The position numbers and the translations under genes were made by a program. From Bugula neritina (lineage: Eukaryota; Bryozoa; Gymnolaemata; Cheilostomatida; Bugulidae): a stretch of DNA of 64,000 nt. The stretch's first letter is position 1. Every line of letters starts with the position of its first letter. The DNA lies in contig OZ037770.1 of NCBI GenBank assembly GCA_964035545.1, positions 11,522,463-11,586,462 of the forward strand, in the 5' to 3' direction. Below are positions 7,883 to 60,115 of this stretch, piece by piece. Below the pieces are notes generated by a model, which saw only the letters and a list, made by a program, of their open reading frames with translations, ran no database searches and had not been told where the DNA came from.

Positions 7883-9257
7883 GTGGATCTGGTTGAAGGA
7901 TTTGCAGAGATTAAAGAAAGAATACAGAGACTGATATCTGTTGAGATACCTAAACTAGAGCTGTGTGATGTCATGTCTCTAAAGGTCAAAGGTTAGCATA
8001 CTACGCTAGAGATTCTAGCACAGTATTATACTACTAATATTTTTAAAAGCTTCTAATAATCATGTATCTGCATTATATAATATAACTTTAACATTTGGCA
8101 TCTTATCTGAAAATTAACCCCATGTGTGTGAAACTACTGGTTCGAAAATTTGAGTTTCTGTTCAAATAGCCCTGTGTGTAGGTTTACTCAGAGTTTCTAT
8201 TAATAGAATATATACACATACTCACCTTTATATGACATACATATTATATATACATACTCACTTACATATAAGTATACACACATACACACATATTCACATG
8301 TATATTGTAGAGGAGAAGAGAGATGCAGAAGTAGACTTGGTTCCTGCAGCAGACATGATTATTAGTTTAGATCCTCCTAAATCTCTTAAACTCTTACAGT
8401 CTGTTGATGTTTCTAGTTACTGTTATTCTGTCTGTAAATATGAGGATAACACTTATGTAGGGCTGGATAGTGCAGGGATAGACAGAATAGATAGAAGTTT
8501 CAGTGTTTCCAAGTCTTTTATTTCTACTACTAACAATGTAACTGGAGTCACAGTACATAGGAAAAGGCTGTATTCTGTACAGGGTAATACCGTGTCTGTG
8601 TATGATCTTACTGGGAAACAGGTGACCAGTTGGTCTCACCATGATAACTGTGGGTATATAAACAAACTTGTTATTGTTGATGATCAGGTTGTAGTTCCTG
8701 ATAGAGGCAGTAAAAGGCTTACAATCTACTCTCTTACTGGGAAAGTAATTAAACATGTCTCCTGCCCTCTACTCAGTAAGGATGCTGTAGCAATATGTGC
8801 AGCAGACAGACATTGTGTAGTAGTTTCTGATTATGGTTCCTCTCAAGTATTTAAATTAGACTTGACAACAGAGAAAGTCATCTGGACATGCAAGGATGTA
8901 TCTCAACCACTAAGTGTGACCTGCTATAGAAGTAGATATATTCTTGTGAGTAACTACAGCAGTAAAACCACCATCTGGATACTGGGTGTGGAGACAGGTT
9001 AGTTTTACATTGGTTAGTTAACTACTGTGACCAATATAATAGTATTTCTCACAGTCTCACACTACAAAATATACTATGCTATGTACTAGTGATGACACAC
9101 TAATACATCATTTCCTGTTACAGGTACACAACTGTCCAAAGTGGACGATCCAACTGATAGAGCTGAGAGTAGTGTGTGTGATCTCCATGTGTATAAAGAC
9201 ACTCTGATTGTACCTAGATACAGTGAGAAGAAAGTTCTGTTTTACCAGCTAAACTAA
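7883..9257 (+). CDS. TRIM-like RING/B-box/propeller protein, copy 1, 3' exons only
   Basis: Three coding exons are seen: 7883-7991 (coiled-coil end, phase 0 in, 1 out), 8311-8997 (propeller blades 1-5) and 9124-9257 (blade 6, TAA at 9255-9257). They are homologous to exons 6-8 of the six complete copies downstream. Exons 1-5 must lie upstream of the retrotransposon, outside the window, or be lost. The element lies in intron 5 in the sense direction, and its LTR carries a polyadenylation signal, so transcripts of this gene may be cut short. The propeller is intact: blade-entry residues are Y (blade 1), NNVT (2), NCGYI (3), KDAV (4), QPLS (5) and ESSVC (6). It lacks the 12-residue DQG-containing insert of copies 4-7. 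The region between the element and exon 6 is intron 5 with the 22-bp minisatellite. Confidence 0.8.
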
Positions 9258-12139: not shown

Positions 12140-12347
12140 CAGTGCTCCCTCTGTATCTCCCTAAGCGACAGGTGTAAAGCCTCAACTCGTGTCATATTAG
12201 AATGCCAGATTCAACTCACGGATCAGTTGAAATTGGTGATTAGGTTCCTATACACACATACATCAGCCACAAAACAGGGGTCAAACTGCTTTCGTGACCT
12301 ATAGAAGTTCGTGAGAAAGGGGTCCTTGAGACACAGAGGGAGCACTG
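12140..12347 (+). mobile_element. Tc1/pogo-like MITE with matching terminal repeats
   Basis: It begins CAGTGCTCCCTCTGT and ends with the exact complement of those 15 bases. It is about 208 bp with no coding capacity. A TA precedes the left end, as in Tc1/mariner and pogo elements, but the right end is followed by TC, so the target duplication is not intact. Copies elsewhere have a different right end (GATCCACTG followed by TA). Family assignment is inferred from the CAGTG ends and TA flanks only. Confidence 0.6.
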
Positions 12348-12710
12348 TCTCTAATACTAATTGCACACAGGTTTTGTTTGGAAAGATAACTCTGAAGGAG
12401 GAACCGATAAGTACATGGTGCTGCAAAGCTTATCAATAGTGTTATTACCATTGAACTATAACTATAGTTTCAGTTCAGTGTTATTACTGCATGGGTTAGT
12501 AGAGTATTCCCTAATTATCTATTATCCTGCTACTACATTATGAGATTGATTGGATTATTAACAATGTGTTAACTGACTATACACTGATAAACCCCACAAG
12601 AGCAAATTCATAACACTATTGTAAAGCATAGAAGTGAGATTGTAAAATGATGAACAAACATAAAATGATGGGCAAACTACAATGGCCTGAAGCTATCAGC
12701 ACATTATATA

Positions 12711-12840
12711 CAGTGCACCCTCTTTATCTCACTAAGCGACAGGTCTAAAACCTCAATACACACATCAGCAACAAAACAGGGTCTAAGCTGTTCTCGTGAC
12801 CTATAGAAATTCGTGAGAAAGGGGTCCTTGAGATCCACTG
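12711..12840 (+). mobile_element. Pogo-like MITE, internally deleted form
   Basis: A 130-bp version with the same ends (CAGTGCACCC...GATCCACTG) and TA on both sides, lacking about 70 internal bases of the 199-bp form. An equivalent lies at 36145-36274. Confidence 0.6.
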
Positions 12841-12952
12841 TATCAAATCTATTGGGCACAGGTTTTGTTTGGAAAGATAATTCTGAAGGAGGAACCGATA
12901 CGTTAATGATGCTGCAACGCTCATCAATAGTGTTATTACTGCGTGCGTTAGT

Positions 12953-12964
12953 GGGGAATTCCCC
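12953..12964. promoter_or_regulatory. GGGGAATTCCCC palindrome, kappaB-like site upstream of copy 2
   Basis: The perfect 12-bp palindrome contains GGGAATTCCC, which fits the NF-kappaB consensus GGGRNNYYCC. It lies 1.25 kb before the ATG of copy 2 and recurs unchanged in every type A spacer that holds this block. It is a sequence match only. The surrounding block is itself repeated, so conservation may reflect duplication. Confidence 0.35.
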
Positions 12965-14208: not shown

Positions 14209-17200
14209 ATGGCTGCAGCAGAAGAAGTTGAGTGTGGATTCTGTTTACTAAAAGAAGGTTTAGAGAATCCCAAGTGTCTACCATGTGGTCATGTACACTG
14301 TTTACTATGTCTTACTCGTAATGTTGATGTGAATGACATGATCAGGTGTCCATGGTGTAGGTAAGTTAGTTTTGTATAGGCGGAGCTGAGACATATTGTT
14401 GGTAGAAAAATAGTGATTGACATCATGTGTTTTAGCTTATACTGAATTTTTACATTACGTTATATATATTTTTAATTACTACTGAATAATTATGTGTCTT
14501 GTCACAGGGAAGTGTTTGATGAGAGAGTGGAAAGTCTTCTATCTGCTGATGTAGAGGACAACTCCGTATCATGTGACGTCTGCACTAAAAAGGGACTGAA
14601 AAAAGTACCAGCCATCATATACTGTACTGTGTGCCGTAAACTCTTCTGCAGAAAACATGATGAGGTGATACTTTCATTAAATATCTCTTCAGTTGATGTT
14701 CAACACTGCATACTCTAACTCAGCCTCTGATTATATATTGTTATACTTAAATGTTGGTTTATAAGAAAGCACTGAGAGATCATGTTTCACTTTTATCTGT
14801 TTTATCTGCTTTCATGTAAACTATACATTTATTTTAAGACTTTGTGTTAGTGGGAACCTTTATGTTCCTATAAATATTTGTAAATTTTTATATCATGTAT
14901 TTGTAAGTTTCATTTCTAATCCACAATATGGATAGTTGAGTTATATTTCTCAGTAAAGATGTATTCTGTTATATTCAGTCACATGATGACACCAATGATG
15001 ACCACCAGAAGATAACCATCTCGGACTACAGAATACAAGCCAAGAGACTAGAGAAAAGAGTTTGTCCCAAACACACAGCATATCCCTACATACAAGGATG
15101 TAAAGTTTGTGTACAGCTGTTCTGTGCGCAATGCACATCTTGCACTAACTTTTGTGTTGGAGGTAAGAAAGTTCTGCTGAAAATTATTTACTAATTATTG
15201 ATAAATCTGATAGGTTGCATAACTACCTCAGTAACTCTTGTAAGATAGCTGCCCTCACCATGAATTGACCTGCAAACCTCTATCATGCAACTTCCACTAT
15301 ATGGGCTACTGGGTAATCACAGCACTACAAATTTGAAGCTAGCATAGATAAAGAGTTTATTTTGAGTAGAAACTCTGTTCAAAAGTATAGTCCATTATTC
15401 ATTGAGAAATTTTAAAATAGGCAAATAATTCTTAAAATATAAAAAATTAATTGAACGTTTAAAATTGAAAAAGAGGTCAGAAGTCAGTGAATTGAAGTGC
15501 CTCTCACTCGCACAGCGTGTCCAAAGTTTTATATTTTGTTTTTCAATGGCCACGCTGGAGTTTAGTTTTTCATTGTCATTTTAATTTTAGACTCACCCCA
15601 TCACATGGTTAATCTAGATGATTTAATCAAAGAGCTTATAAATATAGATGATCTTCTCACCACTGAAGACAAGATGTCTGCTTTCTTCAAACACCTTTCT
15701 AAAACTGTGTCAGACTTTGATAATGAGACGGAGGAATTGCTGAATATTCTTCATACACAGCGTGATGAACAGGTTCTGTGTTTATAGAAAATACTTTGTG
15801 TTGCTCTGTAATCTACATTCTGTAGTCAGGTGTTAGTAAAACATTGCAATACTAATACTTACGAGTAACAGCTAGGTGACTAGCTACTATGCTGTGTGAA
15901 TTAAATCACTGTATTTTGTTTAAAAAGTTGCAACTTTTGTAATCAATTCTGAAAAACTTTCTCGAATATGTTGTCCACTTTCTGCAATGTGCTGGTACAA
16001 TGTATGATGTAGTTGACTGAAGTGAGACTAAAGTATGAGAAACTGGAGAAGGAATTCTTAGCTAGTAGAAAGAAGACTAAAGAGGAACTGAACAGATACA
16101 TGGAGAGAGAAGTTGAAACTGTTTTGTCTCAACTGAGTAACAGTAGAATGAAGGTAGAAGCTCAACTTAGACAAAACCATCAGGTGAGCAGTGTTCACTA
16201 TATGTTAGCATAAGAAATTTAGGCTATGTCTTTTGTGTGAATCTTTAATAATGCACTAGCATGCTGTATAGGCATGAAATGCGTTGAAAATTAAAGGAAA
16301 TAATGTAAGACTCACGTTGACCATCTCCATGCCTAATTATTTATATTCGTTTTAGCTCTATAGTTGTGTGCTTACAAACTTCAATGTCTTCCAATATGGT
16401 GGGTAAAAGAATTGTTTTAAAGTTGTATTGTTCTAAATTTGTAAAATTCACAACTTTTACCAAAGTCTATATGTTCCTAAATAGTAGGTATACTAACTAT
16501 AGTTGATCTAAATAGTTGATTTGGTGCAATATGCTTGTACCAGGCACACCAAGCTTTTTACCCATTTGTTACTTTATTGGAACTGTCGCACAAAAGATTA
16601 GGAAGTTCTCACTAAAAAGACTATCCTTTTAGCCCCACTGACCAATGCTATGCTTGTTCACTGCAGGTGGATCTGGTTGAAGGATTTGCAGAGATTAAAG
16701 AGAGAATACAGAGACTGATATCTGTTGAGATACCTGAACTAGAGTTGTGTGATGTCATGTCTCTAAAGGTCAAAGGTTAGTATACTAAACTAGAGCTGTG
16801 TGATGTCATGTCTCTAAAGGTCAAAGGTTAGTATACTAAACTAGAGCTGTGTGATGTCATGTCTCTAAAGGTCAAAGGTTAGCAAACTAGACTGTAGAAT
16901 TCTTGTACTAGTGCACCTTTATTAAGATATTTGAAATAATCATGTATCTGCATTGCATCTGGTAAGTGCTTTTCATGTGTGTGCAACTACTGGTTAGAAA
17001 ATTTGAGTATCAGTTGAAATAGCCCTGTGTGTATAAGTCAGAGTTTCTATTAATAGAATTTATACACATACTCACTTTTATATGACATACATATTTTATA
17101 CATACTCACTTATATATAAGTATACACACATACACACATATTCACATGTATATTGTAGAAGAGAAGAGAGAAATAGAAATAGACTTGGTTCCTGCAGCAG

Positions 17201-18120
17201 ACATGATTATTAGTTTAGATCCTCCTAAATCTATCAAACTCTTACAGTCTGTTGATGTTTCTAGTTACTGTTATTCTGTCTGTAAATATGAGAGTAACAC
17301 TTATGTAGGGCTGAGTGGTGGAGGAATAGACAGAATAGATGAGAGTTTCAGTGTTTCCAAGTCTTTTATTTCTTTTACTAAGTGGGTAAATGGAGTCACA
17401 GTACATAGAAATAAGCTGTATGCTCTACATTGTATCAGCAGCAGTAATTGGGAGGTACATGTGTATGATCTTACTGGGAAACAGGTGACCAGCTGGTTTC
17501 ACCATGATAGTAATCGGTATGTAAACAAACTTGCTATTGTTGATGATCAGGTTGTAGTTCCTGATAGGCACAGTAAGAGGCTTACAATCTACTCTCTTAC
17601 TGGGGAGGTAATTAAACATGTCTCCTGCCCTCTACTCAGTAATAGTAATACAGCAATATGTGCAGCAGACAGACATTGTGTAGTAGTTTCTAACACTGGT
17701 TCCTCTCAAGTATTTAAATTAGACTTGACAACAGAGAAACTCATCTGGACATGCAAGGATGTATCTCAACCACAAGGTGTGACCTGCTATAGAAGTAAAT
17801 ATATTCTTGTGACTAACCGCAGCAGTAAAACCACCATCTGGATACTGGATGTGGAAACAGGTTAGTATTACATTAATTAGTTAACTACTGTGACCAATAT
17901 ATTAGTATTTCTCACAGTCTCACACTATAAAATATATTATGCTAAGCACTAGTGATGACACACTAATACATCATTTCCTGTTACAGGTACACTACTGTCC
18001 AAAGTAGAAGATCCAACTGGTAGAGCTGGGAGTAGTGTGTGTGATCTCCATGTGTATAAAGACACTCTGATTGTACCTCGATTCATGGAGAAGAAAGTTC
18101 TGTTTTACCAGTTGAACTAA
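14209..18120 (+). CDS. TRIM-like RING/B-box/coiled-coil/beta-propeller protein, copy 2
   Basis: Coding exons: 14209-14360, 14508-14664, 14979-15162, 15591-15772, 16013-16183, 16667-16775, 17159-17860, 17987-18120; 596 residues. Exon 1 is a C3HC4 RING (C9, C12, C26, H28, C31, C34, C47, C50, with P48 of the C-P-x-C usual in ubiquitin E3 ligases). Exon 2 has a B-box 1 pattern (CX2C...CX2CX4CX2H) and exon 3 a B-box 2-like pattern (CPKH...CKVC...CAQC). Exons 4-6 are charged, helical coiled-coil sequence. Exons 7-8 give six propeller blades of about 40 residues, NHL-like (VVVPDRHSKRLTIYSLTG). The likely role is a cytoplasmic E3 ligase whose propeller binds target or ligand; this is inferred from the family. 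Blade-entry residues: Y; KWVN; SNRYV; NSNT; QPQG; GSSVC. Two extra 51-bp donor repeats follow exon 6. Confidence 0.9.
15248..15310 (-). repeat. Decayed tRNA-like SINE remnant in intron 3 of copy 2
   Basis: On the minus strand the sequence resembles an old, diverged form of the tRNA-like module seen in copies 3, 4 and 7, with GGTCAATTC in place of a B box. A near-identical copy lies at 38733-38795 in copy 5. Confidence 0.25.
16776..16877 (+). repeat. Two extra 51-bp units duplicating the intron 6 donor
   Basis: Units 16776-16826 and 16827-16877 each repeat the end of exon 6 plus its GTTAG donor. Fifty-one bases equal 17 codons. Reading through meets an in-frame TAG at the start of each unit, so only the first donor gives a full-length protein here. 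Confidence 0.9.
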
Positions 18121-20729: not shown

Positions 20730-23700
20730 ATGGCTGCAGCAAAAGAAGTTGAGTGTGGATTCTGTTTACTAAAAGAAGGTTTAGAGAATCCCAAATGTCT
20801 ACCATGTGGTCATGTACACTGTTTACTGTGTCTTACTCGTAATGTTGATGTGAATGACATGATCAGGTGTCCCTGGTGTCGGTAAGTTAGTTTTATATAG
20901 GCAGAGCTGAGACATACTGTTGGTAAAGAGTTAATTATTTACATCAGCTGTTTTACCTTATACTAAACTAAACTTTTATATTTTTCTGTTATAATATAGT
21001 TTCAATAGTTATGTGTCTTGTCATAGAGAAGTGTTTGATGAGAGAGTGGAAAGTCTTCCATCCGCTGATGTAGCAGACAACTCCGTATCATGTGACGTCT
21101 GCACTAAAAAGGGACTGAAGAAAGTACCAGCAGTTATATACTGTACTGTGTGCCGTAAACTCTTCTGCAGAAAACATGATGAGGTGATACTTTCATTAAA
21201 TACTTCTTCAGTTGATGTTCAACACTGCATACTCTAACTCAGTCTCTGATTACATATTGTATACTTGAATGTTGATTTATAAGAAAGCACTGAGAGATCA
21301 TGTTTCACTTTTATCTGTTTTATCTGCTCTTATGTAAACTATACATTTATTTTTAGACTTTGTGTTAGTGGGAATTTTTATGTTCCTATAAATATTTGTA
21401 AATGTTTATAATATCATGTATTTGTAAGTTTCATTTCTAATCCACAATATGAATAGTTGAGTTATATTTCTCAGTAAATGCATATTCTGTTATATTTAGT
21501 CACATGATGAAACTGGAGATGACCACCAGAAGATGACCATATCTGACTACAGAATACAAGCCAAGAGACTGGAGAAAAGAATTTGTCCCAAACACACAGC
21601 ATATCCCTACATACAAGGATGTAGAGTCTGTGTTCAGTTATTCTGTATGCAGTGCACATCTCAGACTAACTTTTGTGTTGGAGGTAAAAGAATCTACTGA
21701 ATGTTATTTGCTAAACATTGGGAAATTTGACAAACTATATTACTATCTCAGTAACTCTTGTAATAAAGCTGCCTCCTCCAGGAACCAAACTTCAGTCCTC
21801 CAACTAGCAAGCTAACGCGCTACTCATTACACTATGAGGGCTACTAGGGTATCACAACACTAGAAATCTGAAGCTAGTATAGAGAGATGGTTTACTAACT
21901 TTACTTATAGTAGAATTTTCTTACCCAAGTCTACCTCGTTATTTATAATCTAGAGTTTCAGCAGTAGGCAAATCATTCTTAAATTTTAAAATGTAGTCGA
22001 TTGAACATTTAAGATAAAAATTAGAAATAATGAATGTAGGGCAATAGTAAGGCATTCATGATGATATATAATAATAATTATTTATGTAGCTATTATTATG
22101 TCTATTAGTATAGATAGAAATTTCCAATTTTGTCAAGTCTGCACAATTAATGCAAAAGTTGTACAAATAGTGGTTATGAGTGCTGTATTCCGTCAAATCT
22201 GAGTGAATTTTTGTAAATTCAAATGTCACTCACTTATACAGCCTGTCTAAGCTTTGTCACGATTTTGCCACGGTGAAGTTTAGTTTTTATTTTCATTTTA
22301 GACTCACCACACCACATGGTTAATCTAGATGACTTAATCAAAGAGCTTATCAATATAGATGATCTTCTCACCACTGAAGACAAGATGTCTGCTTTCTTCA
22401 AACACCTTTCTAAAACTGTGTCAGACTTTGATAATGAGACGGAGGAATTGCTGAATATTCTTCATACACAGCGTGATGAACAGGTTCTGTGTTTATAGAA
22501 AATACTTTGTGTTACTCTGTAATCTACATTCTGTATTCAGGTGTTAGTAAAGCATTGTAATACTAATATTTAAGAGTAACAGTTAGGTGACTAGCTACTA
22601 TTCTGAGTAAATTAAAACTCTATACTTGGTTAAAATATGTGATTTTTACAACTCAATTTTTTATGGAATGTTTTCTCTAATGTGTTGTTCATTTTTTACA
22701 ATGTGATGATACAATGTATGATGTAGTTGAGTGAAGTGAGACTAAAGTATGAGAAACTGGAGAAGGAATTCTTAGCTAGTAGAAAGAAGACTAAAGAGGA
22801 ACTGAACAGATACATGGAGAGAGAAGTTGAAACTGTTTTGTCTCAACTGAGTAACAATAGAATGAAGATAGAAGCTCAACTTAGACAAAACCATCCGGTT
22901 AGCAGTGTTCACCATCTGTTAATGAAATATGTATATAATCTTGTTTTCTTTCTCCCAATCTCTAATCATTTACTATCTTCACACCAGCCTTGATCATTTA
23001 TTTCTTTTACAGCGTCATGGTTTTGTGCAAAAGTGTAAACAATCTGCAAGCTATGACCTCATAGCTGTATAGTTATAACATCATGATTATACAATTTTGT
23101 CAGCCCAAGTAAAGTTGTAGAGCTTAAGACTTGGCTTAAAGCAAGATCTAAATTTGTGAATGTCACAATTTCCACCTCCAAATTTCACCTTACAACTACA
23201 CTTTAAAATAGAATATTATGCATAGTTTATATTAGTATCTGTTTGTTACCACATTTGTGTTCTGTGTGTACCATATGTATTGTAATTGCGTAACGTTATG
23301 TAAACATACACAGCGCTGAGGTCTCTAATTAAGTGAAGTTATCTCCACATAACTCTGTATGCTGTTTGTTATATACTGTAGGTGGATCTGGTTGAAGGAT
23401 TTGCAGAGATTAAAGAGAGAATACAAAGACTGATATCTGTTGAGATACCTAAACTAGAGCTGTGTGATGTCATGTCTCTAAAGGTCAAAGGTTAGTATAC
23501 TAAACTAGAGCTGTGTGATGTGATGTTTCTAGAGGTCAAAGGTTAGTATACTGAACTAGAGCTATGTGATGTCATGCCTCTGCAGGTCAAAGGTAAGTAT
23601 ACTCAACTAGAGCTGTGTGATGTCATGCCTCTAAAGATCAAAGTTTAATATACTAGACTGTAAAATTCTTGTACTAGTGCACTTTTGTTAAAATATTTAA

Positions 23701-24853
23701 AATAATCATGTATCTGCATCGAATCTGATAAGTGCTCTTCATGTGTGTGAAACTGCTGGTTAGAAAATTTGAATATCTGTTGAAATAGCCCTGTGTGTAG
23801 GTTTACTCAGAGTTTCTATTAATAGAATTTATTCACATACTTACTTTTATATGACATACATATTATATATACAGAATCACCTATATATAAGTATACACAC
23901 ACACACATATTCACATGTATATTGTAGAAGAGAAGAGAGACATGGAAGTAGACTTGCTTCCTGCAGCAGACATGATTACTAGTTTAGATCTTCCTAAATC
24001 TCTCAAACTCTTACAGTCTGTTGATGTTTCTAGTTACTGTAGTTCTGTCTGTAAATATGAGGGCAACACTTATGAGAGTTTCAGTGTTTTCAAGTCTTTT
24101 ATTTCTCTTACCAACTCTGTAGCTGGAGTCACAGTACATAGGAACAAGATGTATGCTCTACAGTATATCAGCAGCACTAATTGGGAGGTACATGTGTATG
24201 ATCTTACTGGGAAACAGGTGACCAGGTGGTCTCACCATGATAGTAGTTACGGTGTAAACAAACTTGTTATTGTTAATGATCAGGTTGTAGTTCCTGATAG
24301 ACACAGTAAAAGACTTACAATCTACTCTCTTACTGGGGAGGTAATTAAACATGTCTCTTGCCCTCTACTCAGTAATAGTAATACAGCAATATGTGCAGCA
24401 GACAGACATTGTGTAGTAGTTTCTGACTGGGATTCCTCTCAAGTATTTAAATTAGACTTGACAACAGGGAAAGTCATCTGGACATACAAGGATGTATCTG
24501 AACCACATGGTGTGACCTGCTATAGAAGTAAATATATTCTTGTGACTAACTGCAGCAGTAAAACAACCATCTGGATACTAGATGTGGAGACAGGTTAGTT
24601 TTACATTGGTTAGTTAACTACTGTTACCTAGATATTAGTATTTCTCACAGTCTCACACTATAAAATATACTATGCTAAGTACTAATGATGATACACTAAT
24701 ACATCATTTCCTGTTACAGGTACACAACTGTCCAAAGTAGAAGATCCAACTGATAGAGCTTGGAGTAGTGTGGATGATCTTCATGTGTATAAAGACACTC
24801 TGATTGTCCCCAGACGTAAAGAGAAGAAAGTTCTGTTTTACCAGCTAAACTAA
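20730..24853 (+). CDS. TRIM-like RING/B-box/coiled-coil/beta-propeller protein, copy 3 (short blade 1)
   Basis: Coding exons: 20730-20881, 21027-21183, 21500-21683, 22302-22483, 22727-22897, 23382-23490, 23928-24593, 24720-24853; 584 residues. RING, B-boxes and coiled coil match copy 2 closely (E5K in the RING leader). Exon 5 ends CCG before its donor instead of the usual CAG, a weaker splice context (Gln to Pro). In exon 7, 36 bases (12 residues, VGLSGGGIDRID in its neighbours) are missing after NTY at about 24074. The joint lies on a shared ATG, as if by slippage or microhomology. This removes the outer part of blade 1 in frame, so the fold may be altered. Blade-entry residues: S; NSVA; SSYGV; NSNT; EPHG; WSSVD. 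Four donor repeats in total follow. Confidence 0.88.
21769..21845 (-). repeat. tRNA-like SINE remnant in intron 3 of copy 3
   Basis: Read on the minus strand, GTGTAATGAGTAGCGCG resembles a D-arm with A box, and AGTTTGGTTCCTGG about 35 bases later resembles a T-arm with B box. The anticodon stem does not pair properly, so this is a decayed tRNA-derived module, not a tRNA gene. Homologous copies occur in copies 4 and 7. Confidence 0.35.
23491..23643 (+). repeat. Three extra 51-bp donor units after exon 6 of copy 3
   Basis: Units 23491-23541, 23542-23592 and 23593-23643. The third repeated donor reads AAAG/GTAAGT, nearer the consensus than the functional AAAG/GTTAGT, but reaching it would pass in-frame TAG codons. 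Confidence 0.88.
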
Positions 24854-44815: not shown

Positions 44816-45626
44816 ATGGCTGCAGCAGAAGAAGTTGAGTGTGGATTCTGTTTACTAAAAGAAGGTTTAGAGAATCCCAAGTGTCTACCATGTAGTCATG
44901 TACACTGTTTACTGTGTCTTACCCGTAATGTTGATGTGAATGACATGATCAGGTGTCCCTGGTGTAGGTAAGTTAGTTTTCTATAGGCAGAGCTGAGACA
45001 TACTGTTCGTAAAAAAATAGTGATTTACATCATATGTTTTACTTTATACTGAATTTTTGCATTCCGTTATATATAGTTTCAATCATTACTAAATAATTAT
45101 GTGTCTTGTCATAGGGAAGTGTTTGATGTGAGAATGGAAAGTCTTCCATCTGCTGATGTAGTAGACAACTCCGTATCATGTGACGTCTGCACTAAGAAAG
45201 GGATAGAGAAAGTACCAGCAGTCATATACTGTACTGTGTGCCGTAAACTCTTCTGCAGAAAACATGATGAGGTGATACTTTCATTAAATATTTCTTCAGT
45301 TGATATTCAACACTGCATACACTAACTCAGCCTCTGATTACATATTGTTATACTTGAATGTTGGTTTGTCAGAAAACATTTAGAACTCATATTTTACTTT
45401 TGTTTTTTGTTTTTCAATAAATGTATATTCTGCTATATTCAGTCACATGATGACACCAATGATGACCACCAGAAGATGACCATCTCGGACTACAGAATAC
45501 AAGCCAAGAGATTGGAGAAAAGAGTTTGTCCTAAACACACTGCATACCCCTACATACAAGGATGTAAAGTCTGTGTTCAGCTGTTTTGTTTGAAGTGTGT
45601 CTCTTCAGGCAACTTGTGTGTTGGAG

Positions 45627-46537
45627 GTAAGAAAGTTCTGCTGAAGGTTATTTGATATTTAGTTTAGTATATCTAATAAACTATATAACCTCTTCAGTGT
45701 GGGAGAAGTGGGTGCAGTGTTGGAGAAATTGAGAATAGCCTGTGTTCTAGATTAGAAATATATCATGAGAAGTTATGCTCTAGCGAGAATTTCAACCTGC
45801 GCCCCAAACCAAAGTTTAGCAACAAAATTAAAGAGCTTAGTTTGCCTCAATTTCTCTACTACTAAATGATGTGCAAGCAGCTGTGGTGGTTAGAGCACTG
45901 ATATTAGTTTGAATCTCAGAAATAGTCAGTGGTTGAATTCCGAAGGTTATGATGTCAGGAATGGCTTCCCTGCACTTAGCCTACTTTAAACATCTATTTA
46001 ACGAGGGGTTCTCACACCCCTGAAACCTACATATTTCATTTGGAACTCTCACACTAATGGCAACTATAAAGTCATGTGAATTTTATGACCTCTTCAGTAA
46101 ATCTATGATTAGATAAAAACAGATAGACAGTAGAGTTTAAGTAGAAGTGCTATGAAACAATGTGTTTTATTATTACTTTGAGATCTATTATCTTCTCATA
46201 ACCTGTACATCTTGTCTGGAACTTGCCATTTCTATAACTCATTACATTTCTACTGTAGTCAGTGTTGCTTCAAATGTTGACTGCTTAAACAAAGAATTCA
46301 CTGACATATTAAACTTTATCCAGTGAGAAGAAATGAAAAGAACTGTTTCTATATATAATATTAGTTTGTTGTTTGTCCAGTAGTCATAGCATACCATATG
46401 GTGACATTTCAGCTTCTCACTACCTTCTTGTAGTACTGGCCTTTTAACTGTCTAACTACTGTGAGGTTATATTACTGTAGTGCTATCAGGTTAGTGAAAT
46501 GTGGGCTATTTTTCATTTACTCTCATTTCAATTTTAG
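45627..46537 (+). other. Unique intron 3 of copy 6
   Basis: 911 bp without resemblance to intron 3 of the other copies and without the tRNA-like remnant. No gene or clear repeat is seen. Its last 40 bases before exon 4 are again family-like. Confidence 0.5.
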
Positions 46538-47768
46538 ACTCTAAACATGACATGGTTAATCTAGATGACTTAATCAAAGAGCTTATCAATATAGATGATC
46601 TTCTCACCACTGAAGACAAGATGTCTGTTTTCTTCAAACACCTTTCTAAAACTGTGGCAGACTTTGATAATGAGACGGAGGAATTGCTGAATATTCTTCA
46701 TACACAGCGAGATGAACAGGTTCTGTGTTTATAGAAAATACTTTGTGTTACTCTGTAATCTACATTCTGTAGTCAGGTGTTAGTAAAACATTGCAATACT
46801 AATACTTAAGAGTAACAGCTAGGTAACTAGCTACTATCTGTGTGAAGTATACCACTATTTTTTGTTTAAGGATTTAGGAGTGTTATGCGAAATTACCTAT
46901 GATGTTTTTTGATCTAATTCTGAAACACTTTCTCGAATATGTTGTCCACTTTCTACAATGTGCTGATACAATGTATGATGTAGTTGACTGAAGTGAGACT
47001 AAAGTATGAGAAACTGGAGAAAGAATTCTTAGCTAGTAGAAAGAAGACTAAAGAGGAATTGAACAGATACATGGAGAGAGAAGTTGGAACTGTTTTGTCT
47101 CAACTGAGTAACAGTAGAATGAAGATAGAAGCTCAACTTAGACAGAGTCACCAGGTGAGCAGTGTTCACCATCTGTTTATGAAATATGTATATAATCTTG
47201 TTTTCTTTCTCCCAATCTCTAATCATTTACTTTCTTCATCCAGCCTTGATCATTTACTTCTTTTACAGCGTCATGGTTTTATGCAAAAGTGTAGACAATC
47301 TGCAAGCTATGACCTCATAGCTGTATAGCTATGACATCATAGCTGTATAGTTATGACATCATGATTATACAATTTTGTCAGCCCAAGTAAAGTTATAGAG
47401 CTTAAAATTTGGCTTAAAGCAAGATCTAAATTTGTGAATGTCACAATTTCCACCTCCAAATTTCACCTTACAACTACACTTTAAAATAGAATATTATGCA
47501 TAGTTTATATTAGTATCTGTTTGTTACCACATTTGTGTTCGGTGTGCACCATATGTATTGTAATTGCGTAACATTATGTAAACATGCACAGCGCTGAGGT
47601 TTCTAATTAAGTGAAGTTATCTCCACATAACTCTGTATGCTGTTTGTTATATACTGTAGGTGGATCTGGTTGAAGGATTTGCAGAGATTAAAGACAGAAT
47701 ACAGAGACTGATATCTGTTGAAATACCTAAACTAGAGTTGTGTGATGCCATGTCTCTAAAGGTCAAAG

Positions 47769-47870
47769 GTTAGTATACTAAACTAGAGCTATGTGATGTC
47801 ATGTCTCTAAAGGTCAAAGGTTAGTATACTAAACTAGAGCTGTGTGATGTCATGTCTCTAAAGATCAAAG
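47769..47870 (+). repeat. Two extra 51-bp donor units after exon 6 of copy 6
   Basis: Units 47769-47819 and 47820-47870. A 20-base piece of another unit (49426-49445) lies beyond the inserted transposon. Confidence 0.85.
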
Positions 47871-47888
47871 GTTAATATACTAGACATG

Positions 47889-49425
47889 CACGGGCTTTCC
47901 ATGTACCGATCTGAGACATGTGCTCAGATCGATCGTTTTTCCATGAGAGTGTCAGATCGATCTCGCGAAATTGCCTCCTCTTAAAGGATTGCTCTATCTT
48001 AGTTTATTACAATCACATTATAATTATGAACTATAATCTAATGTGTATGCAAACAATTGTGACTTTGCAAAGGGATATATGCCTAGAAAACAGCTTTTCA
48101 AAATTCCAATTTTGAGGGAGGTAAAATTTTCAGCCATGAAAAAGAATAGCCTAATACGTGACGTGTGAACGCCAGTAACTATGCTGCACGTGCTAACAAT
48201 AACGCTAGTATTCAAGGTTGCTGAGCTCAGCATCAACCAATCACGCTCAAGCAGTTACAGTGTGCTATATAGGTTAGCTTTGGTGCGCCCGTAATATTGC
48301 ACAATCTGACCTAGTTTAGATCGATCGCAGGCATTCATCCTAAAGAATGCATGTTTTTGCAATGCTTTTTTCTATGCTTACAAGCAAAATATGGCCTAAT
48401 GTTATCACATACATGTTATTTAACATGTCAAAAAACTATAGATTGAGATAATTCACATTTGCACTTCTATAAATATACAAATTACGAGCTGAAAGATCAC
48501 ATCTCACAGTCATATTTCTATAGTTATTCATTTGTATAGTCACGTGACCAGCAGGAATGCTGGCGTTGTTACGTCACACTTCCCAGCTCATTTCAAAATC
48601 GGCGTTTTGGCTGTTACCAATCTACACCCTCAACTTCAACTAACTTTTTCTACCTTTGGTCATATGCTTTTTGTCAATGCATGCTTAGAAAAACACAATA
48701 TTATGTGTGTTTGACCTAAATGGCCATTTATTAGACAAGATAGAGCAATCCTTTAAGTGAAGGATACTTTGAAAGTATAATTTGTTCACCTATTTGAGTG
48801 ATTAAAGCTACTACTGTTGAAAACAAGGTGGTAGTAATCTAAAATTTAATCCTAGCTATAAACTATACGCAGCAAAGCTTTCAGTGTATGGTAATTTGGC
48901 CAATTTAAAATAAATAATTTTAATTTTTTAGCTTGACAGCTTATATAAAATTAATGGCTGTCTTGCAGATTATTAATAAACTTACAGGACTGTTAGGCCT
49001 AAAATTACAAAGAAAATAGCTAATGAAACTAAGTTTTAATAGTCATTTAAATTCAATTTAAATTCTCCCATTTTTTTTACCTTCTGCTGCATATAATTTA
49101 GTTTTCTTAATCATAGTACTGAAAGTCAAAGTTTTGGCATCTGAAAAAGTGGCTATCATAATTATTTAATATTTTGCTTAGTAATTATCAATAAGTTATC
49201 ATTTTTATTAGCAGACAACATTGTAGCACACAGTCCTTTTCTACTTCTCAGATCGATCTAGCGTCTTTCCATGGTCTTATTGACATGAGATCGATCTGAG
49301 TTCGAGCTCCACAGACCGACCAGCTCAGATCGACTGAGATCGATCTTTGGCGTCTTTCCATGGATCGTTCTAGCTGAGATCGATCTGAGATCGGTACATG
49401 GAAAGCCGGTGATGGAAAGCCCGTG
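47889..49425 (-). mobile_element. GATCGATC-rich TIR element in intron 6 of copy 6 (inverted, with nested insertion)
   Basis: The ends are CACGGGCTTTCCATGTACC and the complement, with a second, CACCGG-type end just inside the right border (about 49386-49412), as if two termini were joined. Without its 768-bp nested element it is about 765 bp, like its two relatives, but in the opposite orientation. CATG stands on both sides. The flanks do not rebuild one simple 51-bp unit, so the target duplication is uncertain. Confidence 0.8.
47985..48752. mobile_element. piggyBac-like MITE nested in the element of copy 6
   Basis: A 768-bp insert with perfect 16-bp inverted ends (AGGATTGCTCTATCTT) and TTAA on each side (47981-47984, 48753-48756). 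The uninterrupted TTAA is seen in the relatives (CTTCACTTAAGAGGAGG near 58677). TTAA duplication is diagnostic of piggyBac-type transposition. No transposase is encoded; the longest frame (60 codons) has no recognisable domain. Confidence 0.8.
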
Positions 49426-52400
49426 CATGTTTCTAAAGGTCAAAGGTTAGCATACTAGACTGTAGAATTCTTGTACTAGTGCACTTTTGTTAAAATATTT
49501 AAAATAATCATGTATCTGCATTGCATCTGATAAGTGCTCTTCATGTGTGTGCAACTGCTGGTTAGAAAATTTGAATATCCGTTGAAATAGCCCTGTGTGT
49601 AGGTTTACTCAAAGTTTCTATTAATAGAATTTATTCACATACTTACTTTTATATGACATACATATTTTATATACATACCCACTTACATATAAGTATACAC
49701 ACGTACACACATATTCACATGTATATTGTAGAAGAGAAGAGAGACATAGAAATAGACTTGGTTCCTGCAGCAGACATGTTTATTAGCTTAGATCAAGGAA
49801 TGACAACTCCTACTCTTCCTAAATCTCTCAAACTCATACAGTCTGTTGATGTTTCTAGTTACTGTTGGTCTGTCTGTAAATATGATGGCAACGCTTATGT
49901 AGGGCTGAGTGCAGGGATAGACAGAATAGATGAGAGTTTCAGTGTTTCCAAGTCTTTTGCTTCTTTTACCAACTCAGTAGTTGGAGTCACAGTACATAAG
50001 AACAAGCTGTATGCTGTAGAGCTTATCAGCAGAACTAATTGGGTGGTACATGTGTATGATCTTACTGGGAAACAGGTGACCAGCTGGTCTCACCATGATA
50101 ATTGTTGGGGTATAAACAAACTTGCTATTGTTAATGCTCAGATAGTAGTTCCTGATAGACACAGTAAAAGACTTACAATCTACTCTCTTACTGGGGAGGT
50201 AATTAAACATGTCCCCTGCCCTCTACTCAGTAGTCTCACGGTAGCAATATGTGCAGCAGACAGACATTGTGTAGTAGTTTCTGACTGGGGTTCTTCTCAA
50301 GTATTTAAATTAGACTTGACAACAGAGAAAGTCATCTGGACATGCAAGGATGTATCTAAACCACTAGGTGTGACCTGCTATAGAAGTAAATATATTCTTG
50401 TGAATAACAGCAGCATTAAAACCACCATCTGGATACTGGATTTGGAGACAGCTTAGTTTTACATTGGTTAGTTAACTACTGTTAGCAATATATTAGTATT
50501 TCTCACAGTCTCACACTATAAAATATACTATGCTAAGTACTAGTGATGACACACTAATACATCATTTCCTGTTACAGGTACACAACTGTCCAAAGTAGAA
50601 GATCCAACTGATAGAGCTGAGAGTACTGTGTATGATCTTCATGTGTATAAAGACACTCTGATTGTACCTAGATGTAATGAGAAGAAAGTTCTGTTTTACC
50701 AGCTAAACTAAACAGGTGTGTGACAGGATATTATTCCATATTGTGGTACATTTATTATATTGTTTATCACACTAGACTCTGTTTGAATACATTTGGTGCT
50801 CAACTCTGTGTTTTCTACTAATGTACATATTTGTAATGATATGTCTGAGATGTACAACTTCTACATATACACTGTGTCTGTTATTTCTAGATGATTCTCA
50901 AAGTTGACTCTGTGGACTGAGTTCTTCAACACAGAGCTATGATACAGTGTGGAAGGCTGTATGACGTCCCAGTAACTAACTTATGCACCTTAATATGACT
51001 AATTTCAAGTAATAATTTTTTTTCCACTTGTACCAAGCCTCTTCCACACAACCTGCAAGACTTCACGGTATTAACTAGCCTGTAACTTTTTATATATCTA
51101 ACATGATTTGCATTGAATGGTCATGTAGAGATCAATGTATTTATAATGGTAACTCTAAGTCTACATTTCCTACAGCCTGAAATACTATTACATCACAATG
51201 TTTATTGTTTATTATCAAATATCAACCACTACTACTACATTAATTTTGCTGTTGAAAAGTTGTGTATTTTGACTGATGGCCATAATACATGATTTATTAC
51301 TTGATTTTTGTCTACACAAGAATTACCTCCATATTGCTAATTAGATTGTATGTTTCAATTTGATTTTTATTTTCTTTAAATATTCTGTGAAATAAATTGC
51401 CTTTTTTTGTAGGCTATAAATATTCTTGATTGGATCTCTGAATGCAATATCACAGAGTTATGTAATAGTTGACTGTATGGTTGTTTTACAGGAAGTTTTG
51501 AAACATTACATGCCATGGCATCCTTGTTCGGAAACCGATTTAGGCAGCAAAAAGTTTGGGGTCACTGAGTGTATTTGCCAAGGACTTCTCGAGTTTGGGT
51601 ATGGACCTCGAAGGATATTGTTCACTGTACATTGAACTCAGTGACCTTGAACTTTGTGCTGCCCTTAACCATAATTTATTAATTCTAACCATAGTGCATA
51701 GTTTACTACATAGTTATGACCTATACTAGAGGTGTCCAAATTCAGGCACCAAAGCTACAGGTGATGCTTAACCTTTAAACCATGATACTGTAAAAGTGTC
51801 TAATTTCAATCACAACAGGTCTGTGTGGGCCAACTAATATCTGTTTGTAAACCAAGTAGTGATTAGAAGCAGTAAAAGTTAGGATATAGTTACTTCCTGT
51901 TTAAACCCGGTTTCCAATAGCAACAATGTTACATGAATATCAGTCATGTATTGTGAGGGTACACGAAACCTGTATAAGTGTAGTTGTAAAGTAATTACTA
52001 ATGTGGCAGTAGCACATAGTATTGGACAGTCTCTGATATATTAGTAACATCTTTGAGTTGCTACACCTGACTTCTCCATATGGTTATCTGTAAGATTTTT
52101 TAACCTCAGGTCTAGCCTACTGACAATTTGTAGGACTTTTGGTTTGAGTGACAGTTTGAGATCCTTGAGTGGCAACAAAACCATCATAATCATTTGATTG
52201 GCTGTGTTAGAATAATAGTCAAAATGATTAATTATTCCAAGATATTCTATAAACAGTGAATAAATTAATAAATTGAAGTGGTTACAGCTACTAATAGCAA
52301 AATATTTTACTATAAATCACCATGCCGTATTCCTGCAATAACATTTACAGAATTTATATTCTGTGTAAAGTATAATATAAACAATGTAGCAGCCTGTTAT

Positions 52401-55202: not shown

Positions 55203-58200
55203 ATGGCTGCAGCAGAAGAAGTTGAGTGTGGATTCTGTTTACTAAAAGAAGGTTTAGAGAATCCCAAGTGTCTACCATGTGGTCATGTACACTGTTTACT
55301 GTGTCTTACTCGTAATGTTGATGTGAATGACATGATCAGGTGTCCCTGGTGTAGGTAAGTTAGTTTTGTATAGACAGAGCTGAGACATACTGTTGGTAAA
55401 GAGTTAATTATTTACATCAGCTGTTTTACCTTATACTAAACTAAACTTTTATATTTTTCTGTTATAATATAGTTTCAATAGTTATGTGTCTTGTCATAGA
55501 GAAGTGTTTGATGAGAGAGTGGAAAGTCTTCCATCCGCTGATGTAGCAGACAACTCCGTATCATGTGACGTCTGCACTAAAAAGGGACTGAAGAAAGTAC
55601 CAGCAGTTATATACTGTACTGTGTGCCGTAAACTCTTCTGCAGAAAACATGATGAGGTGATACTTTCATTAAATACTTCTTCAGTTGATGTTCAACACTG
55701 CATACTCTAACTCAGCCTCTGATTACATATTGTTGTACTTGAATGTTGATTTATAAGAAAGCACTGAGAGATCATGTTTCACTTTTATCTGTTTTATCTG
55801 CTCTCATGTAAACTGCACATTTATTTTTAGACTTTGTGTTAGTGAGAATTTTTATGCTCCTATAAATATTTGTAAATGTTTATATCACGTATTTGTAAGT
55901 TTCGTTTCTTTTCCACTATATGGATAGTGGAGTTATATTTCTCAGTAAATAAATATTCTGTTATATTTAGTCACATGATGAAACTGGAGATGACCACCAG
56001 AAGATGACCATATCTGACTACAGAATACAAGCCAAGAGACTGGAGAAAAGAATTTGTCCCAAACACACAGCATATCCTTACATACAAGGATGCAGAGCTT
56101 GTGTTCAGTTATTCTGTATGCAGTGCACATCTCAGACTAACTTTTGTGTTGGAGGTAAAAGAATCTACTGAAAGTTATTTGCTAAACGTTGGGAAATTTG
56201 ACAAACTATATTACTTACCTCAGTAACTCTTGTAATAAAGCTGCCTCCTCTAGGAACCAAACTTCGGTCCTCCAACTAGCAAGCTAACGCGCTACTCATT
56301 ACACTATGAGGGCTACTAGGGTATCACAACACTATAAATCTGAAGCTAGTATAGAGAAATGGTTTACTAACTTTACTTATAGTAGAATTATCTAACTCGT
56401 TATTTTTAAACTAGAGATTCAGCAGTAGGCAAATAATTTTTAAATTATAAAATGTAGTCAATTGAACATTTAAAATAAAAATTAGAAATAATGAATGTAG
56501 GACAATAGTAAGACATTTATGATGATATATATTAATAATTATTTTATGTAGCTAGTATTATGTCTATTAGTATAGATAAAAACCCCTCATTTCGTCAAGT
56601 CCGCACATTTAATGCAAAAGCTGTACAAATAGTGGTTATGAGTGCTGTATTCCGTCAAATCTGAGTGAATTTTTGTAAATTCAAATGTCACTCACTTATA
56701 CAGCCTGTCTAAGCTTTGTCACGATTTTGCCACGGTGAAGTTTAGTTTTTATTTTCATTTTAGACTCACCACACCACATGGTTAATCTAGATGATTTAAT
56801 CAAAGAGCTTATCAATATAGATGATCTTCTCACCACTGAAGACAAGATGTCTGCTTTCTCCAAACACCTTTCCAAAACTGTGTCAGACTTTGATAATGAG
56901 ACGGAAGAATTGCTGAATATTCTTCATACACAGCGTGATGAACAGGTTCATGTGTTTATTGAAATACTTTCTGTTACTCTGTAATCTACATTCTGTAGTC
57001 AGGTGTTAGTAAAACATTACAATACTAATACTTAAGAGTAACAGCTAGCTAACTAGTTACTATTCTGTGTTTATTAACTCAATTTTGGAAAACTTTTTCT
57101 AATAAGTTGTCAATATTCTACAATGTGATGATACAATGTATGATGCAGTTAACTGAAGTGAGACTAAAGTATGAGAAACTGGAGAAGGAATTCTTAGCTA
57201 GTAGAAAGAAGACTAAAGAGGAACTGAACAGATACATGGAGAGAGAAGTTGAAACTGTTTTGTCTCAACTGAGTAACAGTAGAATGAAGGTAGAAGCTCA
57301 ACTTAGACAAAACCATCAGGTGATCAGTGTTCACTATATGTTAGCATAAGAAATTTAGGCTATGTCTTTTGTGTGAATCTTTAATAATGCACTAGCATGC
57401 TGTATATGCATGAAATGCGTTGAAAATTAAAGGAAATAATGTAAGACTCACGTTGACCATCTCCATGCCTAATTATTTATATTCGTTTTAGCTCTATAGT
57501 TGTGTGCTTACAAACTTCAATGTCTTCCAATATGGTGGGTAAAAGAATTGTTTTAAAGTTGTATTGTTCTAAATTTGTGAAATTCACAACTTTCACCAAA
57601 ATCGATATGTTCCTAAATAGTAGGTATACTAACTATAGTATATCTAAATAGTTGATTTGGTGCAATATGCTTGTACCAGGCACACCAAGCTTTTTACCCA
57701 TTTGTTACTTTATTGGAACTGTCGCACAAAAGATTAGGAAGTTCTCACTAAAAAGACTGTTTTTTAGTCCCACTGACCAATACTATGCTTGTTCACTGCA
57801 GGTAGATCTGGTTGAAGGATTTGCAGAGATTAAAGAGAGAATACAGAGACTGATATCTGTTGAGATACCTGAACTAGAGCTGTGTGACGTCATGTCTCTA
57901 AAGGTCAAAGGTCAGTATACTAAACTAGAGTTGTATGATGTCATGTCTCTAAAGGTCAAAGGTTAGTATACTGGACTAGAGCTGTGTGATGTCATGTCTG
58001 TAAAGGTCAAAGGTTAGTATACTAACACCGGCTTTCCATGTACCGATCTCAGATCGATCTTAGCGAGATCGATCCATGGAAAGACTCCAAAGATCGATCT
58101 CCGTCGATCTGAGCTGGTCGGTCTGTAGAGCTCGAACTCAGATCGATCTCATGTCAATAAGACCATGGAAAGACGCCGGATCGATCTGAGAAGTAGAAAA

Positions 58201-60115
58201 AGACTGCGCGCTACAATGTTGTCTGCTAATAAAAATGATAACTTATTGATAATTACTAAGCAAAGCATTAAATAATTATGATAGCCACCTTTTCAGATGC
58301 CAGAACTTTGACTTTCAGTACAATGATTAAGAAAACTCAATTATATGCAGTAGAAGGTAAAAAAATGGGAGAATTTAAATTGAATTTAAATGACGAATAA
58401 AACTTAGTTTCATTAGCTATTTTCTTTGTAATTTTTAGCCTAACAATCCTGTAAGTTTATTAATAATCTGCAAGACAGCCATTAATTTTATATAAGCTAG
58501 TCAAACTAAAAAATTAAAATTAATTATTTTAAATTGGCCAAATTACCATACACTGAAAGCTTTGCTGCGTATAGTTTATAGCTGGGATTAAATTTTAGAC
58601 TAGGACCATCTTGTTTTCAACAGTAGTAGCTTTAATCACTCAAATAGGTGAACAAATTATACTTTTAAAGTATCCTTCACTTAAGAGGAGGCAACTTCGA
58701 GAGATCGATCTGACACTCTCATGGAAAAACGATCGATCTGAGGACATTTCTCAGATCGATCTCAGCGAGATCGATCTGAGATCGGTACATGGAAAGCCCG
58801 TGTAAACTAGAGCTGTGTGATATCATGTCTCTAAAGGTCAAAGGTTAGCATACTAGACTGTAGAATTCTTGTACTAGTGCACCTTTATTAAGATATTTAA
58901 AATAATCATGTATCTGCATTGCATCTGATAAGTGCTCTTCATGTGTGTGCAACTACTGGTTAGAAAATTTGAATATGATCAGTTGAAATAGCCCTGTGTG
59001 TAAGAGTCAGAGTTTCTATTAATAGAATATATATACATACTCACTTTTATATGACATACATATTTTATATACATTCTCACTTATACATAAGTATGCACAC
59101 ATACACACATATTCACATGTATATTGTAGAAGAGAAGAGAGAAATAGAAATAGACTTGGTTCCTGCAGCAGACATGATTATTAGCTTAGATCAAGGAGTG
59201 ACAACTCCTACTCTTCCTAAATCTCTCACACTCTTGCAGTCTGTTGATGTTTCTAGTTACTGTTGGTCTGTCTGTAAATATGAGAGTAACACTTATGTAG
59301 GGCTGAGTGGTAGAGCAAGGATAGACAGAATAGATGATAATTTCAGTGTATACAAATCATTCATTTCTCTTACCAATTCTGTAGCTGGAATCACAGTACA
59401 TAGGAACAAGCTGTATGCTCTACAGGGTATCACCAGCACTAATTGGACAGTACATGTGTATGATCTTACTGGGAAACAGGTGACCAGCTGGTCTCATCAT
59501 GATAATTTTGGGTATATAAACAAACTTGCTATTGTTGATGGTCAGGTTGTAGTTCCTGATAGAGGCAATAAGAGGCTTAAAATCTACTCTCTTACTGGGG
59601 AGGTAATTAAACATGTCCCCTGCCCTCTACTTATCGATGGTAATACAGCAATATGTGCAGCAAACAGACATTGTGTAGTAGTTTCTCAGTATGGTTCCTC
59701 TCAAGTATTTAAACTAGACTTGACAACAGAGAAAGTCATCTGGATATGCAAGGATGTATCTCAACCAGAAGGTGTGACCTGCTATAGAAGTAAATATATT
59801 CTTGTGACTAACCGCAGCAGTAAAACCACCATCTGGATACTGGATGTGGAGACAGGTTAGTTTTACATTGGTTAGTTAACTACTGTTACCAATATATTAG
59901 TATTTCTCAGAGTCTCACACTATAAAATATACTATGCTAAGTACTAGTGATGACACACTAATACATCATTTCCTGTTACAGGTACACAACTGTCCAAAGT
60001 AGACGATCCAACTGATAGAACTGTGAGTGGTGTGTTTGATCTTCATGTGTATAAAGACACTCTGATTGTACCTAGATGTGATGAGAAGAAAGTTCTGTTT
60101 TACCAGCTAAACTAA
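55203..60115 (+). CDS. TRIM-like RING/B-box/coiled-coil/beta-propeller protein, copy 7
   Basis: Coding exons: 55203-55354, 55500-55656, 55971-56154, 56764-56945, 57149-57319, 57802-57910, 59130-59855, 59982-60115; 604 residues. Exons 1-3 and intron 1 are closest to copy 3, intron 5 to copy 2, and the 3' flank to copy 3 again, so the gene is a mosaic. In this copy alone the first base triplet after exon 6 reads GGT CAG instead of GGT TAG. A second donor one 51-bp unit later (exon 57802-57961) would therefore add 17 residues in frame, repeating LELYDVMSLKVKG. Blade-entry residues: W; NSVA (followed by GITV); NFGYI; DGNT; QPEG; VSGVF. Intron 6 carries a 777-bp transposon. The B-box 2 region has Ala in GCRACV where others have Val. 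Confidence 0.9.
56239..56327 (-). repeat. tRNA-like SINE remnant in intron 3 of copy 7
   Basis: Counterpart of 21769-21845, with the same A-box-like and B-box-like stretches on the minus strand. Confidence 0.35.
57911..58012 (+). repeat. Two extra 51-bp donor units after exon 6 of copy 7, third split by a transposon
   Basis: Units 57911-57961 (no in-frame stop) and 57962-58012. A third begins at 58013, is interrupted at 58026 by the TIR element, and resumes after 58802, ending near 58843. Confidence 0.88.
58026..58802 (+). mobile_element. Non-autonomous TIR element, 777 bp, in intron 6 of copy 7
   Basis: Same family and orientation as 34578-35355. The ends are CACCGGCTTTCC at the left and the complement of CACGGGCTTTCC at the right. 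TAA is duplicated at both sides (58023-58025, 58803-58805), and the intact site TACTAAACTAG is seen in the neighbouring repeat units. Dense AGATCGATCT palindromes lie near both ends. Confidence 0.87.

Follow-up and report, generated by a model that had tools for sequence, protein, structure and literature searches.

The 64-kb stretch analysed here (the window), on contig C6 (OZ037770.1) of a 216-Mb, 295-contig genome, carries a head-to-tail array of TRIM-like genes in which the top face of an NHL-like beta-propeller appears to have been diversified between copies by positive selection, with the RING and B-box-like exons held constant. The array consists of six complete RING/B-box/propeller genes of eight exons (E1-E8) at 14,209-60,115 and exons 6-8 of a seventh, and it extends beyond the window on C6. 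An earlier note, made from the sequence alone, had described seven head-to-tail copies with constant RING, B-box and coiled-coil exons and a variable propeller. The seven propeller exons are confirmed, and the residue strings that it quoted for blades 1, 3, 4, 5 and 6 and after VVS match the translated genes in alignment. Its count of seven RING, B-box and coiled-coil copies is true of the array, but only six copies have the RING, the B-box and E4-E5 within the window; exons 1-5 of copy 1 are found 0.9-3.7 kb before the window begins. The ratio of nonsynonymous to synonymous change (dN/dS) among the seven window copies is 0.14 in the RING exon, 0.22 in E1-E3 and 0.24 in E4-E6 vs 0.91 in E7 and 0.65 in E8, in agreement with the conserved effector exons that had been claimed.

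Diversifying sites on the propeller

Propeller exons were sampled from C6 (40), from the C3 type (16, one of them located on C4) and from C8 (28); the C6 set was reduced to 38 by dropping one copy with a stop codon and one identical to copy 2. Diversifying codons in exon 7 number 18/235 in C6, 6/239 in C3 and 20/222 in C8 (C6 residues in Table 1, copy 2 numbering). An AlphaFold2 model of exon 7 alone, built from the seven window sequences with exon 8 (blade 6) outside it, has 19 strands and a mean predicted local distance difference test (pLDDT) score of 65.5, and the strands may be assigned to five blades, each ordered A-B-C-D and the fifth incomplete. In propellers, D-A and B-C loops lie on a common face; these loops and the adjoining strand ends were taken as the top side and the A-B and C-D loops with their ends as the bottom side, with sides assigned from the model strands and the start of strand A3 and the blade 1 entry set by hand. 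Called sites fall on the top side in 18/18 (C6), 6/6 (C3) and 18/20 (C8) cases, the two C8 exceptions being an N-terminal linker residue and an insertion column, vs 0/83 bottom-side residues in each set (Fisher P 1.5e-5, 0.03 and 5.7e-6 for C6, C3 and C8, respectively). Thirteen exact columns are common to C6 and C8 (P=3e-13), which have 17 and 19 called sites, respectively, among the 212 columns present in both.

Exon 8 of copy 2 adds further diversifying sites (Table 1), counted from the T of TLLSK and given loop names by analogy, with blade 6 lying outside the model; site 33 follows the second strand and is read as a B-C loop. Because exon 8 contributes these blade 6 sites, the pattern spans all six blades. 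Face-residue combinations differ in 38/38 distinct copies. Diversifying selection is confined to one face in the C6 clusters, and acts at largely the same positions in clusters at ~40% identity.

The sites defined in C8 have a dN/dS of 3.04 in C6, and those defined in C6 have 3.43 in C8, a comparison free of circularity because sites chosen in one set are measured in the other. The whole bottom side has a dN/dS of 0.47 (C6), 0.28 (C3) and 0.43 (C8). Simulating a null in which every site with dN>dS was given equal rates (four runs each for C6 and C8) yields 3, 1, 0 and 1 called sites for C6 (observed 18) and none in all four runs for C8 (observed 20); with a free synonymous rate, twice the log-likelihood difference (2dlnL) is 0.3-8.7 (C6) and 0.6-2.2 (C8) under the null vs 84 and 121 observed. 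When E7 and E8 are analysed together in the C6 copies that have both, 23 E7 sites exceed 0.9, among them the additional sites 75, 90, 91, 94 and 96, which were put on the top side by hand.

The earlier note had placed the variation at the blade entries and had said beforehand that neutral or purifying change there, or residues lying in the core or scattered, would refute diversification of one binding surface. Rates at the blade-entry sites exceed neutrality in C6 and C8 and do so more weakly in C3, and the sites lie on one face, neither in the core nor scattered, in a model of moderate confidence. Diversification of one surface is thus supported; its location needs widening, with D-A loop (blade-entry) sites confirmed but accompanied by B-C loops of the same face.

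The domain is called NHL-like because NHL structures tie with other propellers and the Pfam NHL match is weak compared with PQQ_2. The best-aligned solved structures are the NHL domains of Thin (score 19.6), Brat (19.5), TRIM3 (19.5) and TRIM2 (19.4), tied with LRP6 propellers (19.3) and others, and a profile of 33 propeller exons reaches Brat at E=2.8e-5; seven further C4/C5 propeller exons were used in the profile alignment only. Brat is reported to touch RNA with N800, Y829 and R847, NHL domains binding RNA through the top surface (PMC9070667), and R875, F916 and N933 are each described as required for repression (PMC13245067); LIN41 is reported to bind RNA on the upper surface too, in a different manner (PMC5908797). 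In a register read by hand from the profile alignment, where one numbering offset yields the right letter at 6/6 residues, Y829, R875, F916 and N933 align with sites 121, 164, 204 and 221, all four called in C6. N800 aligns with S96, called in C8, and R847 with the conserved R137, which adjoins site 138. By chance, four of the six Brat positions would meet called sites with P 4.6e-4 across the whole exon and 0.011 if top-side residues alone are considered. This alignment is in keeping with the suggestion in the earlier note that propellers of this kind bind RNA or protein through such a face.

Constant exons and family size

The eight zinc ligands of the RING (C-x2-C...C-x-H-x2-C-x2-C...C-x2-C) are present in 7/7 copies, as are two Cys/His modules with B-box-like spacing. 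By phmmer the nearest RING is that of TRIM56, tied with RNF213 (E=7e-6), and among solved structures the closest RINGs belong to TRIM56, RNF213, TRIM25 and TRIM32. E4-E6, candidates for the coiled coil of TRIM/RBCC proteins, look charged and helical by eye. The site-rate test calls no diversifying site among 163 in the RING/B-box exons of 16 distinct copies. Pfam gives no match to B30.2/PRY-SPRY or to NACHT/NB-ARC in the 596-aa model at E<=0.1, and B30.2/PRY-SPRY is absent among the 25 of 41 Pfam families listed for the 33 propeller exons. With a RING, a pair of B-box-like zinc fingers, helical exons and, at the end, an NHL-like propeller of six blades, the products are predicted from their architecture to be TRIM-like RING E3 ligases that act inside the cell. 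Exon 3, which holds the second B-box-like module (e.g. 14979-15162), has the highest synonymous divergence among the effector exons (pS 0.275), and near its end two sequence types occur, one in copies 1 and 6 and the other in the remaining copies, which together suggest exchange between copies.

A propeller-exon search of the genome (150/283 candidates scored, so that the counts are lower bounds, tallied by hand) located at least 40 full or near-full propeller exons, and partial pieces, in three C6 clusters: at least 9 at 9.10-9.21 Mb, at least 14 at 10.30-10.52 Mb and at least 17 at 11.43-11.60 Mb. Further relatives were found on C3, C4, C5, C8 and other contigs among the matches listed, with identity to copy 2 ranging from 100% down to ~40% (C8). 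A near-identical twin of the region carrying copies 1 and 2 sits 56 kb upstream, at 99.9% identity across the 5' parts and 98.3-98.8% across the 3' parts compared. Copy 2 (w2) and its twin are identical in E7 and 98.8% identical outside it over 3 kb; a haplotig artefact is disfavoured and a recent segmental duplication, though unproven, is more likely, because the twins share one contig, lie 56 kb apart and differ outside E7. The family appears to have multiplied through tandem and segmental duplication. One paralogue (L031, C6:9181585) has an in-frame TAG in its propeller exon and another copy is seemingly split (C6:11446157 and 11448878), both consistent with birth and death of copies. A 5.8-billion-protein database yielded 7879 candidates with shared words, of which none matched at E<=0.001.

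Gene models and neighbouring features

All seven gene models are open and encode 584-615 residues, that of copy 6 assuming use of an altered donor. The lengths of E1-E6 are constant across copies, and junctions are GT-AG throughout except for the exon-7 donor of copy 6. The 602-aa model of copy 6 presumes splicing at this donor (CT, not GT; 50440-50460), and the copy is probably damaged and mis-spliced at exon 7; read-through would end the protein one residue past exon 7 and remove blade 6. Blade 1 of copy 3 is without alignment columns 50-61.

Intron 5 of copy 1 contains an open reading frame whose Pfam domains suggest a Ty3/gypsy-like element. This element seems to have inserted before the segmental duplication, because the twin of copy 1, 56 kb upstream, keeps the same RING-to-propeller distance (12.0 kb). 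A 51-bp minisatellite of ~3-4 copies in 5/7 genes repeats the 3' end of exon 6 with its splice donor, thereby offering tandem alternative donors; in copy 2 a stop codon is met beyond the first donor. Introns of copies 1 and 4 carry 22-bp minisatellites.

Table 1. Positions of the gene copies, diversifying sites and other features (window coordinates unless a contig is given).
Feature	Position	Strand	Details
Copy 1, in-window part	7883..9257	+	E6 7883-7991, E7 8311-8997, E8 9124-9257
Copy 1, whole model	E1-E5 at C6:11518771-11521605		591 aa, open, GT-AG introns; E1-E5 upstream of window
Copy 2, complete, 596 aa	14209..18120	+	E1 14209-14360, E2 14508-14664, E3 14979-15162, E4 15591-15772, E5 16013-16183, E6 16667-16775, E7 17159-17860, E8 17987-18120
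Copy 3, complete, 584 aa	20730..24853	+	E1 20730-20881, E2 21027-21183, E3 21500-21683, E4 22302-22483, E5 22727-22897, E6 23382-23490, E7 23928-24593, E8 24720-24853
Copy 4, complete, 615 aa	29209..33669	+	E1 29209-29360, E2 29508-29664, E3 29978-30161, E4 30771-30952, E5 31218-31388, E6 32271-32379, E7 32651-33409, E8 33536-33669
Copy 5, complete, 605 aa	37694..41668	+	E1 37694-37845, E2 37993-38149, E3 38465-38648, E4 39078-39259, E5 39525-39695, E6 40171-40279, E7 40680-41408, E8 41535-41668
Copy 6	44816..50711	+	E1 44816-44967, E2 45115-45271, E3 45443-45626, E4 46538-46719, E5 46984-47154, E6 47660-47768, E7 49732-50451 (donor CT), E8 50578-50711
Copy 7, complete, 604 aa	55203..60115	+	E1 55203-55354, E2 55500-55656, E3 55971-56154, E4 56764-56945, E5 57149-57319, E6 57802-57910, E7 59130-59855, E8 59982-60115
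Copy 2 exon 7, numbering reference	17159..17860	+	Residue 1 = first E of EEKR
C6 diversifying residues of exon 7 (copy 2 numbering)			37, 39, 53, 71, 73, 76, 78, 92, 120, 121, 122, 138, 164, 165, 180, 204, 206, 221
Copy 2 exon 8 (blade 6)	17987..18120	+	Diversifying sites 13, 14, 16, 18 (blade entry), 33; P 0.94-1.0
Ty3/gypsy-like open reading frame (class suggested by Pfam domains), copy 1 intron 5	516..6470	+	1984 codons; Pfam reverse transcriptase, RNase H, protease and integrase domains
51-bp minisatellite	16737-16893, 23449-23659, 40234-40398, 47727-47882, 57872-58025		
22-bp minisatellites, introns	7361-7544 (copy 1), 31677-32013 (copy 4)		

Interpretation and known systems

The explanation that we consider probable is that these genes encode E3 ligases that act inside the cell and bind targets through a diversified face, probably for non-self recognition. 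On this reading the RING, B-box and helical part and the propeller bottom are held constant and the top face, formed by D-A and B-C loops of all six blades, is varied by positive selection. That face would bind targets (proteins, RNA or both) differing between copies, and binding would place the target near the RING common to all copies, where it would be ubiquitinated, or would trigger signalling; the targets may derive from rapidly evolving antagonists, for example viruses, microbes or mobile elements. An immune or self-recognition role, as proposed in the earlier note, is an inference. More tentatively, the family may constitute a germline repertoire of dozens to more than 100 intracellular E3 ligases, in which a constant effector carries the whole face of a six-bladed propeller as its variable surface, much like an antibody, built on the TRIM-NHL RNA-binding face and directed against viral, microbial or mobile-element molecules.

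Several observations weigh against this explanation. The site-rate test is our own FUBAR-type grid code, not HyPhy or PAML, and a likelihood ratio with a fixed synonymous rate was discarded for its inflated null values (93-332). Averaged over the whole top side, dN/dS is 1.07 (C6), 0.62 (C3) and 1.01 (C8), and in C3 the sites called in C6 or C8 reach no more than 1.23 and 1.41. When trees are built for each of five segments, 12/18 C6 and 17/20 C8 sites are kept and 2 and 7 others added, respectively, with 2dlnL below 4 in two of ten segments, and the joint E7+E8 run keeps 15/18 C6 sites (losing 76, 120 and 138) and calls three N-terminal linker sites (6, 8 and 22). The face assignment depends on the exon-7 model, with its mean pLDDT of 65.5 and without exon 8. 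The commonest Pfam propeller match is PQQ_2 (28/33 members at E<=1, best 6.3e-7); NHL (PF01436) matches 9/33 members at E<=1 (best 0.0085; none for member 1) and scores 13.8 of 20 bits in copy 7. The best Pfam RING match (E 1.8e-4, 21.7 bits, cut-off 27) lies below the curated cut-off, as do zf-B_box (14.3 of 24.1 bits) and the ANCHR-like B-box (23.4 of 27). The stretch aligned with Brat has an E-value of its own of 0.31, making the register likely, not secure. Top-side net charge runs from -5 to +5 in C6, from -7 to +4 in C8 and from 0 to +7 in C3; because it varies in sign, RNA binding is not claimed for all copies, and a single RNA-binding face shared by every copy is unsupported, the sign changing within C6 and C8.

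One alternative is genome conflict, in which RNA-binding repressor propellers would track transposon or parasite RNAs, much as TRIM-NHL proteins repress mRNAs, with the face following changing RNA motifs. The NHL-like fold, the four of six Brat RNA-contact positions that are called C6 sites, the neutral to basic C3 top side and the report that the C-terminal NHL-like part of TRIM56 binds Zika virus RNA and is needed for restriction (PMC6623546) speak for it, but the top side is not consistently positive in C6 and C8 and the Pfam NHL match is weak, and we regard this as unlikely, if the foremost of the alternatives. Self or kin recognition, which would tell individuals (allorecognition) or gametes apart under balancing selection for rarity, as in fungal NWD incompatibility genes, would fit face-residue combinations that differ in every distinct copy. 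It would also fit the fungal NWD family, incompatibility genes included, in which four positions per repeat are reported to diversify on the beta-propeller interaction surface (PMC4986451). With no NACHT domain in the 596-aa model (Pfam, E<=0.1), and with at least 40 copies in three C6 clusters, more in keeping with a repertoire than with one or a few loci for recognition, it is improbable and ranks next.

Relaxed constraint, with the top loops unimportant and drifting, would fit whole-exon E7 dN/dS values (0.91 in the window, 0.78 in C6, 0.74 in C8 and 0.49 in C3), whole-top-side values near 1 in C6 and C8 and the general tolerance of loops to change. A dN/dS of 3.0-3.4 in C6 and C8 at sites chosen independently of the set measured, against 0.28-0.47 on the bottom, and the 0-3 sites called in null simulations make it very improbable. 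Targeted mutation or templated conversion, rewriting face codons in germ line or soma, would account for the extreme contrast of adjacent codons, for trees with short inner branches and for exon 8 relationships uncorrelated with those of the other exons among the seven copies; the last hints at some exchange between copies, with little power. Yet w2 and its 56-kb-distant twin have identical E7, w1 and paralogue L074 differ by one substituted codon (at an uncalled site) and a five-codon deletion covering called site 53, of the 13 codons at which w1 and L032 differ one is a called site, and the recombination test is weak (P=0.024, 0.13 and 0.28). The most recent duplicate pairs thus disfavour targeted hypermutation and, since their differences are not concentrated at the face, ordinary mutation plus selection is enough to explain them; rewriting of this kind is the least probable account of all.

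If the face binds targets, the family would provide a large intracellular recognition repertoire, the more interesting if, as suspected, the host is an invertebrate lacking antibodies, and a natural library of specificity change on a propeller face. It also bears on whether the TRIM-NHL RNA-binding face is shared with, or was taken over from, a defence role. TRIM diversification is known on the vertebrate B30.2 scaffold; one-face diversification is seen here on another scaffold, an NHL-like propeller. Text searches of leading titles and abstract openings, with most subscription journals and all preprints outside their reach, found no paper describing tandemly arrayed NHL-propeller TRIM genes with a face diversified in this way, which is weak evidence of novelty.

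TRIM-NHL proteins (Brat, Mei-P26, LIN-41/TRIM71, TRIM2/3 and Thin) are developmental or tissue regulators, few per genome. Unlike them, the genes described here form a large family diversified at that face, and match Pfam NHL weakly. Tachylectin-2 is a propeller lectin without an E3 part, and TRIM56 is a single gene in human. Resemblances to these two are that tachylectin-2 is reported as a positively selected putative immunity gene of coral (PMC2880987), and that TRIM56 has the nearest RING by sequence (in the tie with RNF213) and an NHL-like C-terminal part described as binding viral RNA (PMC6623546). The fungal NWD genes HET-D/E/R are alike in positive selection at four positions per repeat on a beta-propeller interaction surface, as reported in PMC4986451, and unlike in joining NACHT to WD40 with near-identical, shuffled repeats, in place of a RING E3 with six unlike blades. 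Teleost finTRIM and primate TRIM5alpha resemble the array as expanded TRIM genes with selected C-terminal loops and few selected RING/B-box sites, finTRIM being reported to have positively selected loops in the B30.2 ligand domain (PMC2657112); they differ in using a B30.2 (PRY-SPRY) sandwich, whereas here the sites are on all six blades of an NHL-like propeller. A top face varied in each copy and joined to a shared RING would be the most likely mechanism, matching both the finTRIM B30.2 loops and the fungal NWD propellers.

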